In this document: piece by piece, positions 12,837-27,559 of the stretch
Position numbering within the stretch: the stretch's first letter is position 1
Layout: each line of letters opens with the position of its first letter
Assembly (NCBI GenBank): GCA_027067555.1
Contig: JAMOVU010000115.1
Location: forward strand, 1 to 32,763
Direction: 5' to 3'
Origin: Candidatus Aminicenantota bacterium
GTDB lineage: Bacteria; Acidobacteriota; Aminicenantia; JAMOAD01
Length of the DNA stretch: 32,763 nucleotides
Translations under genes and position numbers: made by a program
The notes under the pieces: generated by a model
Database searches by the model: none
Seen by the model: only the letters and a program-made list of their open reading frames with translations
What the model was told of the DNA's origin: nothing

Positions 12837-14311
12837 TCAGTTATTTTTTTTTCAGCCTCCGATATTCTCTCTTTAAGCGAAAGCGGAGATTTTTTAAGCT
12901 TTACAGCATCTGCTTTTGTCATTATATCAAGAAACTTATCAAGCTCAACACCGGAACCTCTACCTGTGAAAATAATTCGCATCGGATGAAAAAGCATTTT
13001 CCCTTTAAGTCCCTGCTTTTTTGCCTCATTTATAAAAGAGTAAATATCATTAATGGAAATATTATCAATTTCTTTAAAAAAATCCTTCATAAGGGAAAGC
13101 ATCTTCTCACCACCTTCCCTTTTAAGCTCATCAAAAGCATCTTCGGAATAATCATACTTGAAAAATATCTCAATTTCCATAGGAACATCCTTTAAAGTGA
13201 CTATATTTGTTTTAACAGAATCCACAGCTAAAATAAGCCAATTCAATGTTTTTTCATCAAGCTCATCAAGAGAGTCAAAATAGCCTTCGGAGACCAAAAA
13301 CTCTTCGGCTCTTTTTATAATCTCCTTTGTATCAAGAGTTGCTATATGCTTTCTGTTTACCCAATTAAGTTTATTGTAATCAAAGACAGCTCCCGATTTT
13401 GAAACCTTTGTTATATCAAAAAGCTCAATTAACTCCTCTTTTGACAAAATTTCTCTGTCCTCAGGGGGAGCCCATCCAAGCATAGCAAGATAATTTAAAA
13501 GAGCTTCGGGCAAATAGCCCATACCCTTAAATTGATTCAAAGAGGTCGCACCATGCCTTTTCGAAAGTGGCGAGCCATCCGGTCCCAAAACCATTGAAAG
13601 ATGCCCGAATTTCGGAGGAGTCCATCCCATTGCCTCATAAATCTTTATCTGTTTGGGAGTATTGGAAATATGATCCTCGCCTCTTATTACAAAATCAACT
13701 TCCATATAATGATCATCAACTACAACAGCAAAATTATAAGCCGGAAGACCGTTTGATCTTAAAATGACAAAATCACCGAAAAGGGAAAGGTCAAAGGATA
13801 TTCTTCCTCTTATAATATCATCATAATAAAAATCCTTATCTTCCGGCATTTTAAATCTTATGACAGCCTTCTCTCCGCTCTCAACTCGCCTTTTTGCTTC
13901 TTCGGGAGGAATATTCCTGCATTTTCCTGAATATTTAGGTGGAAGTCCTTTTGAAAGAGCCTCTTTTCTTTCCCTTTCAAGCTCTTCCGGAGTGCAAAAG
14001 CAATAATAGGCTTTTCCCTCTTCCAAAAGTTTATGAGCAACTTTTGTATATAGCTCCAACCTTTCCGATTGTCTGTAAGGTCCGTAATCTCCGCCAGTAT
14101 CAGGACCTTCATCCCACTCAATCCCGAGCCACTTAAAATCTTCAATCAATCCTCTCTCATACTCTTTTGTGGATCTTTCCACATCAGTATCCTCTATCCT
14201 TAAAATGAGCTTACCACCATTTTTTTTAGCATGTAGAAAGTTAAAAAGAGCTGTTCTTGCATTTCCCACATGAACATAGCCCGTGGGACTCGGAGCGAAT
14301 CTTAACCGCAT
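12833..14311 (-). CDS. gltX: glutamyl-tRNA synthetase
   Basis: 492 residues, normal length for the class I enzyme that attaches glutamate to tRNA(Glu) (and tRNA(Gln) in many bacteria). The nucleotide-binding motif is RFAPSPTGYVHVGNARTALF, with HVGN (14-17) as the HIGH motif, and the KMSKS-type loop reads LSKRHGATS near residue 250. RIEDTD, the VDDHYMEVDFVIRGEDH block and the C-terminal anticodon-binding helical domain are present. A cysteine cluster region (YCFCTPEE) occurs at the usual zinc-site position. Strong AAGGAGG lies upstream of ATG 14311, with a promoter at 14340-14368. Whether it is discriminating cannot be told; no gatCAB is seen in the window. Confidence 0.97.
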   Translation of the reverse strand: MRLRFAPSPTGYVHVGNARTALFNFLHAKKNGGKLILRIEDTDVERSTKEYERGLIEDFKWLGIEWDEGPDTGGDYGPYRQSERLELYTKVAHKLLEEGKAYYCFCTPEELERERKEALSKGLPPKYSGKCRNIPPEEAKRRVESGEKAVIRFKMPEDKDFYYDDIIRGRISFDLSLFGDFVILRSNGLPAYNFAVVVDDHYMEVDFVIRGEDHISNTPKQIKIYEAMGWTPPKFGHLSMVLGPDGSPLSKRHGATSLNQFKGMGYLPEALLNYLAMLGWAPPEDREILSKEELIELFDITKVSKSGAVFDYNKLNWVNRKHIATLDTKEIIKRAEEFLVSEGYFDSLDELDEKTLNWLILAVDSVKTNIVTLKDVPMEIEIFFKYDYSEDAFDELKREGGEKMLSLMKDFFKEIDNISINDIYSFINEAKKQGLKGKMLFHPMRIIFTGRGSGVELDKFLDIMTKADAVKLKKSPLSLKERISEAEKKITE

Positions 14312-24943: not shown

Positions 24944-25552
24944 TCATATTTCGTATCTTTTTTCAAAAGCTTTCAAAAGAGTTATATCATCAGTATAATC
25001 TATATCTGATCCAATAGGTAATCCAACCGAAAGTTTTGTGACCTTTACTCCCGGGAATTTTGAAAGGAACTTTTTTAAAAATATTGATGTAGCTTCTCCC
25101 TCTACTGTTGGATTCGTTGCAAGAATTACCTCTTCAACCTCTCCTTTTTTTACAATTTTCTCGAGTTTATCCAGGTGAAGATCCTCGGGGCCAATCCCTT
25201 TTAAAGGAGAAAGGGCTCCCAACAATACAAAATATTTTCCTTTATAAACCCCGGTTCTTTCAATCGAATAAAGATTATAGGGTTGCTCAACTATACATAA
25301 TTTTTTAGAATCTCTTTCCTTAGAAGAACAAATAGGGCAGGGATCAGTATCTGTTATATTATTGCAAACACTGCAGTAAAAAAGCTTATCTTTAAGATTA
25401 GAAATACTATTTCCTAACTCATGTAGCTCCTCCCTATTCATTTTAAGCAAATGGAAAACAATTCTCTGCGAAGATTTCCTCCCCAAACCGGGAATTTTTT
25501 TTAATAAATCAATTACTTTTTGAAGAACTTCAGGATACTGGTAGCCTGCCAT
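24944..25552 (-). CDS. recR: recombination mediator RecR
   Basis: 202 residues, normal length. Helix-hairpin-helix KIPGLGRKSSQRI (19-31), four zinc cysteines C60, C63, C72, C75, a Toprim domain with CIVEQP and the EVILATNPTVEGEAT block, and the Walker-B-like end GLPIGSDIDYTDDITLLKAFEKR. Acts with RecF/RecO to load RecA at gaps. Four nt after ebfC; I see no good Shine-Dalgarno, so translation probably depends on coupling. The order dnaX-ebfC-recR is conserved across bacteria. Confidence 0.95.
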   Translation of the reverse strand: MAGYQYPEVLQKVIDLLKKIPGLGRKSSQRIVFHLLKMNREELHELGNSISNLKDKLFYCSVCNNITDTDPCPICSSKERDSKKLCIVEQPYNLYSIERTGVYKGKYFVLLGALSPLKGIGPEDLHLDKLEKIVKKGEVEEVILATNPTVEGEATSIFLKKFLSKFPGVKVTKLSVGLPIGSDIDYTDDITLLKAFEKRYEI

Positions 25553-25556
25553 AGAA

Positions 25557-25862
25557 CTAAAATAGCCCGGGGATATTCATACCTGGAATATTCGGTAACT
25601 TTGATTGTAATTCCTGATCAACTTTTTCAGAAGCACTGTTTACCGCTGATAGTATTAAATCTTCCAGAGTCTCAACATCTTCCGGGTCAACAATTTCCGG
25701 ATCAATTTTAATTGATATTACTTCTTTTTTACCATTCATCTTTACCTTTACCATATCCCCACCGGCACTACCCTCAACCTCAAGTGTTTCCATCTCACTT
25801 TGAAGCTTCTCCTGTGCATCTTTAACCATTTTAAAAATTTGATTAATATCAATACCTTTCAC
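25557..25862 (-). CDS. ebfC: YbaB/EbfC family nucleoid-associated protein
   Basis: 101 residues. Typical YbaB/EbfC: N-terminal helix with MVKDAQEKLQSEMETLEVEG, the MVKVKMNGKKEVISIKIDPE strand block, VETLEDLILSAVNSASEK, and a Pro/Gly/Met-rich tail (IPGMNIPGLF). Dimeric DNA-binding protein of the nucleoid. The start codon is GTG at 25862, with AGGAGG six nt upstream inside the end of dnaX; the two genes are separated by one base. Confidence 0.94.
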   Translation of the reverse strand: MKGIDINQIFKMVKDAQEKLQSEMETLEVEGSAGGDMVKVKMNGKKEVISIKIDPEIVDPEDVETLEDLILSAVNSASEKVDQELQSKLPNIPGMNIPGLF

Positions 25863-25863
25863 T

Positions 25864-27447
25864 TTATCCTCCTGATTTTATTTCAACAATTTCACCTTTA
25901 AAAAGCTCGAGAAAATCCTTTATTTTAGGGTCTTCCATAATTTTATCAATGGAATTTTTTTTGGAAAACCCCTTTTCAAAATTTACCAAAATAGAGTAAT
26001 TCTTATTTGTAATTTTCTTTATCATCTCGCTAAGTTTATCTTTACCACGAATAAGCATATCATAAGTAACCTTTCTGTTTTCAGGTATCACAAAAATAAG
26101 TTTATTTTTCTCAACCTCAATTCTAACTACATCTTTTAAAGAATGGCACAAAAAGCTTTCTTCATCTTTGGCCTCTTTAATTAATTTATCTAAAAGATTA
26201 CCTTCTTTCTTTTTTGTTTCTAAAGTGGGGTCAATTTGGAAGACAGCACTTGTTTGATGGCTATTCTGGGAAGTATTACTTTCTCTTTTTTCATTCTTAA
26301 TATCAACCCCTTTATCATTTTTTTTTACATTCTCTGCAATAGAAAATTCACTAATATTAACCGCTTCCTGAAGATATATAAGATTAAGCAAAATAATTTC
26401 AAGTAAATATCTTTTGTTAAGACTTTTTCTGAATGAATATTCGTATTTCTCAAGTAAATTTAATAATCTCAAGACTGTCAGGGAAGAAGTTTTTTCCTTA
26501 TTTTTATTAAAAAACTCTCTTTCTCTTTCAGAAAAATTCTCATCAAAGTTTCCTGTCTCCTTAAAAAATAGAAAATTTCTTAAAAAATCAAAAAACTGCT
26601 TGTAAAAATGATAAAAATCCTCTCCTGAGACAAAAATTTCCTCAACAATCTTAATAGCCTCTTTTTTATCTCTGTCAAAAACCGCTTTAAAAGTTCTTTC
26701 AAGAAGATCATCATCCACAATACCAAGTACACTATTTAAAGTACTATCATCAACCTTCTCACTATAAGATACTATCTGTTCAAACAAACTTAGGGCATCT
26801 CTCATACTGCCCTCCGAAACTTCGGCAATTCTTCCAAGTGCCCATTCGGAGACTCCAATCCCCTCTTGCTCTGCTACAAATTTTAATCTCTTTTTAATTT
26901 CCGAAAATGGTATTCTCCTGAAATCAAGGGTTATTGACCTTGAAACCACAGTAGGTAAAACCTTATGAAATTCAGTGGTAGCCAGAATAAAGACAGTATG
27001 CTCCGGAGGCTCCTCCAATGTTTTTAAAAGAGCATTGAAAGCTTCATTTGTAAGCATGTGCACTTCATCTATTATTATAACTTTATATCTCCCCTTTATA
27101 GGTTTATATTTAACAATTTCTCTCAGCTCTCTCACCTGATCAATTCCTCTATTGGATGCTCCATCAATTTCTATAACATCAGGAAAATTCCCCTCTGTAA
27201 TCTCAATACAATTGCTACATTTATTACAGGGTTCCACAGATACTCCCTCTTTACAATTCAGAGCCTTTGCAAATATTCTGGCAACAGAAGTTTTCCCAAC
27301 TCCTCTCATTCCTGAAAATATGTATGAATGGTGGATTTTGGCTGTCTTAAGTGAATTCTGAAGTATTTTTACAACATGGGGTTGATAAATCACATCTTTA
27401 AAGAACTGAGGTCTATACTTTCTTGCAATGGCCCTGTATTCTGACAT
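25864..27447 (-). CDS. dnaX: DNA polymerase III subunit tau (DnaX), with a likely slippage site for gamma
   Basis: 527 residues. AAA+ clamp-loader motor: ARKYRPQFFKDVIYQ, Walker A GMRGVGKT (46-53), four zinc cysteines C65, C74, C77, C80, Walker B IIIDEVHM (124-131), sensor ATTEFHKVLPTVVSR. Domain III ends near residue 360 (RYLLEIILLNLIYL). After a linker there is a short C-terminal tau-type region. At codons 374-377 the mRNA has nine A (26318-26326) followed by TGATAA in the -1 frame, so slippage would stop at 377 residues, a gamma-like protein. The start is 14 nt from the SRP RNA 3' end, with AGGA as ribosome binding site. Confidence 0.95.
   Translation of the reverse strand: MSEYRAIARKYRPQFFKDVIYQPHVVKILQNSLKTAKIHHSYIFSGMRGVGKTSVARIFAKALNCKEGVSVEPCNKCSNCIEITEGNFPDVIEIDGASNRGIDQVRELREIVKYKPIKGRYKVIIIDEVHMLTNEAFNALLKTLEEPPEHTVFILATTEFHKVLPTVVSRSITLDFRRIPFSEIKKRLKFVAEQEGIGVSEWALGRIAEVSEGSMRDALSLFEQIVSYSEKVDDSTLNSVLGIVDDDLLERTFKAVFDRDKKEAIKIVEEIFVSGEDFYHFYKQFFDFLRNFLFFKETGNFDENFSEREREFFNKNKEKTSSLTVLRLLNLLEKYEYSFRKSLNKRYLLEIILLNLIYLQEAVNISEFSIAENVKKNDKGVDIKNEKRESNTSQNSHQTSAVFQIDPTLETKKKEGNLLDKLIKEAKDEESFLCHSLKDVVRIEVEKNKLIFVIPENRKVTYDMLIRGKDKLSEMIKKITNKNYSILVNFEKGFSKKNSIDKIMEDPKIKDFLELFKGEIVEIKSGG
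26318..26326 (-). promoter_or_regulatory. A9 slippage/frameshift site in dnaX
   Basis: On the coding strand GTAAAAAAAAATGATAA: reading one extra A (polymerase slippage) or a -1 ribosomal shift on A-AAA-AAA gives Lys then the tandem stops TGA TAA. It sits directly after domain III. Runs of nine A also occur elsewhere (end of gltX, 12844-12852), so the run alone is not proof. Confidence 0.55.
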
Positions 27448-27461
27448 TATCTTTTCCTATC

Positions 27462-27550
27462 ATGGGGATACTGGCACGTACAGGGTCTTACTTATCGCTG
27501 CTCCCTTCCGGGCCTGACGAGGTTCGTAAGTCTGTACTACCAGTCCCCAT
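27462..27550 (-). ncRNA. ffs: small signal recognition particle RNA (4.5S)
   Basis: 89 nt on the minus strand forming one long hairpin: ATGGGGACTGG at the 5' end pairs with CCAGTATCCCCAT at the 3' end, and the apical part has GTCAGGCCCGGAAGGGAGCA, the conserved domain IV with the GGAA tetraloop that binds Ffh. This is the short bacterial SRP RNA without Alu domain. It pairs functionally with FtsY, encoded 3.6 kb upstream in the same cluster. Only 14 nt separate it from dnaX, with no terminator between. Confidence 0.95.
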
Positions 27551-27559
27551 AATTTTCTG

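Follow-up and report, generated by a model that had tools for sequence, protein, structure and literature searches.

The window analysed here, a 32,763-nucleotide stretch of DNA from a Candidatus Aminicenantota bacterium, carries on its minus strand a dnaX gene encoding the gamma/tau subunits of DNA polymerase III, with an EbfC/YbaB gene and recR downstream and the bacterial small SRP RNA just upstream (Table 1). The dnaX gene (32% GC) is identified by the NCBIfam gamma/tau models (PRK05563 above cut-off; dnaX_nterm covering residues 4-356), and Pfam domain III of the protein corresponds to residues 234-361. An AlphaFold2 model built on 29 aligned DnaX sequences (mean pLDDT 83) gives the core a pLDDT mostly above 85, with the last core helix at residues 345-359. 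Residues 368-415 have a pLDDT below 50, as in a disordered linker, and the C-terminal region is folded from residue 414.

Table 1. Position of dnaX, its parts and its neighbours in the window.
Feature	Codons	Positions	Strand	Basis
recR, after EbfC/YbaB		24944-25552	minus	RecR domains PF21176, PF02132, PF13662, PF21175
EbfC/YbaB gene, downstream neighbour of dnaX		25557-25862	minus	PF02575
dnaX, DNA polymerase III gamma/tau (tau)		25864-27447	minus	single uninterrupted ORF, 527 aa
Clamp-loader core, domains I-III, common to gamma and tau	1-361	26365-27447	minus	Pfam PF13177, PF22608, PF12169
DnaX linker	362-413	26209-26364	minus	low model confidence; poor conservation among relatives
A9 in the dnaX coding strand, proposed slippage site	374-377	26318-26326	minus	sequence
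-1-frame stops TGA TAA, immediately following A9, predicted gamma end (377 aa)		26312-26317	minus	sequence
Folded tau-specific C-terminal region, absent from predicted gamma	414-527	25867-26208	minus	AlphaFold2 model and alignments
Bacterial small SRP RNA, upstream neighbour of dnaX		27456-27553	minus	RF00169, 76.6 bits

Between the two folded parts, 13 codons past domain III, dnaX holds nine consecutive A (A9) read in frame as GTA AAA AAA AAT GAT AAA, and the tau ORF thus has the mark of the Thermus type, at least nine sense A between the clamp-loader core and the tau tail. Insertion of a single A, or a -1 shift, leads through ...NVKKK directly into TGA and gives a product of 377 residues ending 16 residues past the domain III match; with one A fewer, a stop is reached after 408 residues. 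The original prediction, which had described this run, the TGA TAA of the -1 frame and a gamma of 377 residues, is correct in its coordinates, frame, stops and length when the ORF and its translations are read again. Judged from the structural model, truncation at 377 would retain the complete clamp-loader core, the predicted end coinciding with the start of the disordered linker. The gamma chains of E. coli in the solved structure 1JR3 are of similar extent (373 residues), and an E. coli gamma construct of that extent forms a clamp loader. The tau tail of the same gene holds a second run, A8 at codon 496 (25955-25962), with a -1 stop at 500.

The genome to which the window belongs (G000; 2.82 Mb, 202 contigs) was compared with its relatives among the 60 genomes searched, two in the same genus and two more in the family. 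The dnaX genes of G001, from the same genus, and of G004, from another genus, both carry A9-TGA in the same phase, with predicted products of 379 and 387 residues respectively, and in all three genes the site lies 12-19 codons past domain III. The -1 TGA is immediate in each of them, while the +1 stop follows after 32 codons in the gene of the window and after 10-11 codons in G001 and G004. In G002 the assembly is split at the linker: contig C337 starts with A9-TGA and contig C205, with a coverage of 2.5, ends with ACAAAAAATGA (L003, L032). The disagreement consists of base substitutions, not of an A8 or A10 variant, and represents either two strains or low-coverage errors; as the two contigs conflict at the A run, G002 is counted as ambiguous and rejected as clean support. 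In G003 (57% GC), the sole GC-rich family member compared, dnaX has no A run at the site. Conservation of the run in relatives, on which the original prediction had made its case depend, accordingly stands for G001 and G004, is ambiguous for G002, where one of the two conflicting contigs has the run, and fails for G003. As the genome of the window and G001 share a genus, the independent evidence amounts to essentially two lineages.

The linker around the run differs strongly between the genome of the window and G004, the identity being 3 of 11 aligned residues for positions 362-373 and 4 of 24 for 379-415. In the pairwise alignment, which is ambiguous here, the codons of the run face ATC AAA AAG AAT in G004, whose A9 is found eight codons downstream. 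This suggests, as far as such an alignment can be read, that the slippery run has been retained, shifted in position, while the flanking protein sequence turned over. A protein-level cause of the run, in the form of a conserved KKN motif, is weakened by the same ambiguous alignment, since the KKN of G004 is written AAA AAG AAT without A9 and its own A9 stands further on. Among low-GC dnaX genes, at least nine A are present in the 80-codon linker of all three family members with an unambiguous site and in none of the 23 from outside the family (Fisher p = 0.0004, indicative only because the sequences are related), and a site ancestral to the whole class is thereby unsupported. In the linkers of the other class members examined, A9 is nowhere followed by a -1 stop within two codons; either the class ancestor lacked the site or losses have been frequent.

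Runs of this length are rare in coding sequence of this genome. In a genome sample of 332 kb, with 301 kb of ORFs and expectations derived from synonymous shuffles, sense A8 is not avoided (139 observed against 121.8 expected), sense A9 is avoided about four-fold (10 against 41.9) and sense A10 is likewise avoided (1 against 18.5), a sharp avoidance threshold at nine A. Baranov et al. took such avoidance as the sign that A9 is slippage-prone in a genome, and according to the same account it may also reflect replication slippage (Baranov 2005, PMC1088944). Eleven genes in the genome sample have a sense run of at least nine A, and retention was compared for dnaX and four controls; a gene of 1,228 aa was dropped as a control because its A9, at codon 20, is covered by none of the matches listed and the orthologous position is therefore unreadable. 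The controls with A9 or A10 keep a run of at least eight A in one of 12 orthologues overall: none of four for gltX, none of three each for a 600-aa and a 425-aa protein, and one of two, that of G001, for a histidine kinase. Left out of this count are L195 (a G002 kinase match starting past the run), L197 (a G003 kinase match of the C-terminal part only) and L204 (from G002, its similarity to the 425-aa protein too low for an orthologue). Read in the same way, dnaX keeps A9 in two of three (G001 and G004, not G003). The gltX run, at 12844-12852, is the second A9 against which the original prediction had cautioned, and its place near the gene end is confirmed (codon 487 of 492). The histidine kinase (L148, L155; L174:14305-16017) has an in-frame A9-TGA at codon 105 in both G000 and G001, and A7 in G004. 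Altogether 27 A9-TGA places are found in the five genomes; three pairs other than dnaX are each common to two genomes of the genus, with similar flanks, but only dnaX is common to more than two genomes and only dnaX crosses genera.

The A9 just past the core, the immediate stop in the shifted frame and the recurrence of both make it probable that slippage lets dnaX yield two replication proteins, one short and one long, the run being a programmed site, probably used during transcription, through which one gene provides two clamp-loader subunits. The original prediction had thought a Thermus-like mechanism plausible, and both the A9-TGA in relatives with an unconserved linker and the avoidance of A9 in coding sequence lend this further weight. 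RNA polymerase would slip on A9 and produce mixed mRNAs. Copies with A9, or with three A more or fewer, would be translated into tau of 527 aa, whereas those with A10 would run straight into TGA and give gamma of 377 aa, with a complete AAA+ core and without the tau tail; run lengths in the other frame would end 10-32 codons further on. Bacterial polymerase reportedly slips on runs of at least nine A or T, with insertions predominant at the Thermus dnaX run (PMC6260861). It is such an insertion of one A that would reach TGA at once. The slippage reading is weakened by the A-rich and lysine-rich nature of the linker, by the lack of the run in G003 and by the contradictory contigs of G002.

These same weaknesses fit another explanation, in which A9-TGA arose by chance in an A-rich, Lys/Asn-rich disordered linker and was inherited within a young family, tau alone being of importance; this appears unlikely. 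The pattern was scored as at least nine A with a -1 stop within two codons. When codon order is shuffled over 70 linker codons it is obtained in 7.3% of cases for the gene of the window, 8.4% for G001 and 3.5% for G004, and out-of-frame stop codons are frequent in an AT-rich genome, both of which agree with chance, as do the run-free G003 and the one doubtful contig of G002. Resampling of synonymous codons with the protein held fixed gives the pattern in 16%, 23% and 37%, respectively, so that the codons are not unusual given the protein. Rates of 3-8% in the shuffles make a single gene only moderately surprising, and the recurrence in relatives is the stronger evidence: the pattern reappears in another genus with a diverged linker, and the A9/A10 runs found elsewhere are mostly lost in orthologues. 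Real sequences point the same way. Among 80-codon windows from 287 other ORFs of the genome sample the pattern occurs in 177 of 76,567, and in 78 of 6,611 (1.2%) of those equally rich in Lys and Asn, a rate below both shuffle nulls that fits the four-fold avoidance of coding A9.

A product of the same length would result from programmed -1 ribosomal frameshifting on A_AAA_AAA, where two tRNA-Lys slip back by one base and translation ends at the TGA, leaving 377 residues. A heptamer A AAA AAA stands in the correct phase, TGA following as the second codon after it when read in the shifted frame, and a strong Shine-Dalgarno-like AAGGAG occurs about 10 bases upstream in G001 and G002 (-8.1 kcal/mol; equally strong at 2.8% of positions in G001). 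The best Shine-Dalgarno-like element of the gene in the window reaches only -2.9 kcal/mol, a value equalled at 46% of positions, that of G004 is also weak (-4.5 kcal/mol; 19% of positions equally strong), and no downstream fold clearly exceeds shuffled sequences in the four sequences folded (50 and 80 nt). The A_AAA_AAG heptamer was not found at the gamma/tau boundary of this dnaX, which has A_AAA_AAA instead, reportedly much less shifty in E. coli (PMC5009743); the sole in-phase A_AAA_AAG with a near -1 stop among the linker matches listed lies 49 codons past domain III. The E. coli-type set of heptamer, 5' element and 3' stem-loop is hence not found in the gene of the window, and frameshifting is kept as a rival that we consider unlikely. 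A heptamer would suffice for it, yet exactly nine A are retained, a length avoided elsewhere. A change of run length in the DNA itself, by replication slippage that switches tau production on and off, is scarcely credible. Tau carries the polymerase-coupling tail, and a genomic A10 would abolish tau. Moreover, all clean genomes with the run have precisely nine A, and although the G002 contigs conflict at the run, they do so by substitutions and not as A8 or A10. Long A runs in general are prone to replication slippage (Baranov 2005, PMC1088944), which would speak for such a switch.

Transcriptional slippage is thus favoured over frameshifting of the E. coli type on the evidence of the gene and its relatives. 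It fits better because a conserved 5' Shine-Dalgarno-like element and 3' stem-loop are lacking, because exactly nine A are kept, the length at which avoidance begins, and because the genome has two lysine tRNAs, with UUU and CUU anticodons. The use of polymerase slippage in Thermus has been linked to two lysine tRNAs (Atkins 2016; PMC5009743 section 21). That argument is about AAG codons, and its bearing on an all-AAA site is only indirect.

The wider occurrence of such runs was surveyed in 129 distinct dnaX genes, drawn from 58 of the 60 genomes and 80 named loci after removal of duplicates. Runs of at least nine A number 35, none of them in the core (139,638 nt), nine in the 80 codons past domain III (one of them the A10 of the doubtful contig end, C205, in G002), and 26 further on. 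A -1 stop within two codons follows 32 of the 35, compared to 50 of 250 runs of A6-A8, and seven of 10 when 25 genes of a Desulfuromonadia type are set aside. Four of these seven are linker runs of A9 or A10 in GC-rich dnaX genes of other groups, namely a Bacteroidetes MAG (L115), a Desulfobulbaceae MAG (L127), Desulfofustis (L139) and Kapaibacterium (L135).

The 25 Desulfuromonadia-type genes (48-62% GC), mostly titled Geobacteraceae, Desulfuromonadales, Desulfuromonadaceae or Deltaproteobacteria, have A10 (in one case A12) with a -1 stop within two codons, at about 150-166 codons past domain III, near the tau C-terminus and about 40 residues before the end. A search for the motif LSLAEKKKSD and its variants near the C-terminus found the run in 22 of 22 loci (L076, L086, L089, L094, L101, L102, L103, L104, L105, L107, L108, L109, L110, L114, L119, L123, L126, L130, L131, L132, L134 and L141; L104 and L105 share the motif DNA). 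In the ORFs with the motif no more than 374 of 658 lysines are encoded by AAA, yet all of these ORFs carry the run. In place of the A10, three other Desulfuromonadia genes (L067, L072, L128) carry A_AAA_AAG in the linker, a -1 stop following one codon later. The A10 is possibly a conserved slippage site that would trim the C-terminus of tau, and a literature search on Geobacter found no report of it.

Whether bacteria need the short subunit gamma is debated (PMC5009743 section 21). A tentative broader reading, held with less than even confidence, is that gamma made by slippage arose several times across phyla, at differing places in dnaX. The A9-TGA of low-GC Aminicenantes would then be an RNA-level element that shifts in position, and the A10 of the Desulfuromonadia type at 48-62% GC would serve the same end by giving tau without its last ~40 residues, a few Desulfuromonadia genes using A_AAA_AAG. 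If this is true, transcriptional slippage would be a common and recurrently evolved way of setting the gamma:tau ratio rather than an oddity of Thermus. Wherever an independent lineage retains a slippery run just behind the clamp-loader core, costly as such a run is, this would argue that gamma is selected for. For the gene of the window, the extension of Thermus-type slippage to an uncultured acidobacterial lineage makes a testable prediction, namely an A10 mRNA and a DnaX of 377 residues.

The closest known system is dnaX of Thermus thermophilus, which is described as making gamma by transcriptional slippage (PMC1088944; PMC5009743 section 21). Common to that account and to the present gene are a single tau ORF, nine sense A upstream of the tau tail, a near stop in the shifted frame, two lysine tRNAs and the outcome of gamma and tau, which here is predicted. 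The two differ in that the Thermus run lies seven-eighths along the gene, whereas the present run is at codon 374 of 527, only 13 codons after domain III, in a gene of 32% GC whose +1-frame stop is 32 codons away (10-11 in relatives). As in E. coli dnaX, a -1 shift on an A run would bring the short product to its end after one further codon, but the A_AAA_AAG, stem-loop and 5' Shine-Dalgarno-like element of that system are lacking at the site. Poly-A has also been proposed as a site of programmed transcriptional realignment in dnaX genes made of two ORFs, with 7-10 A, Antonov et al. (2013) listing 17 such genes, 12 of them with poly-A (PMC3711429). In those genes, as described there, gamma is in frame and tau needs the shift, while in the present gene tau is in frame and gamma needs the shift. 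A literature search, which covered papers mostly in outline, found no report of dnaX slippage for the Aminicenantes/Acidobacteria lineage. What is known is thus dnaX slippage in Thermus, and what is new is a candidate site for it in the Aminicenantes lineage.
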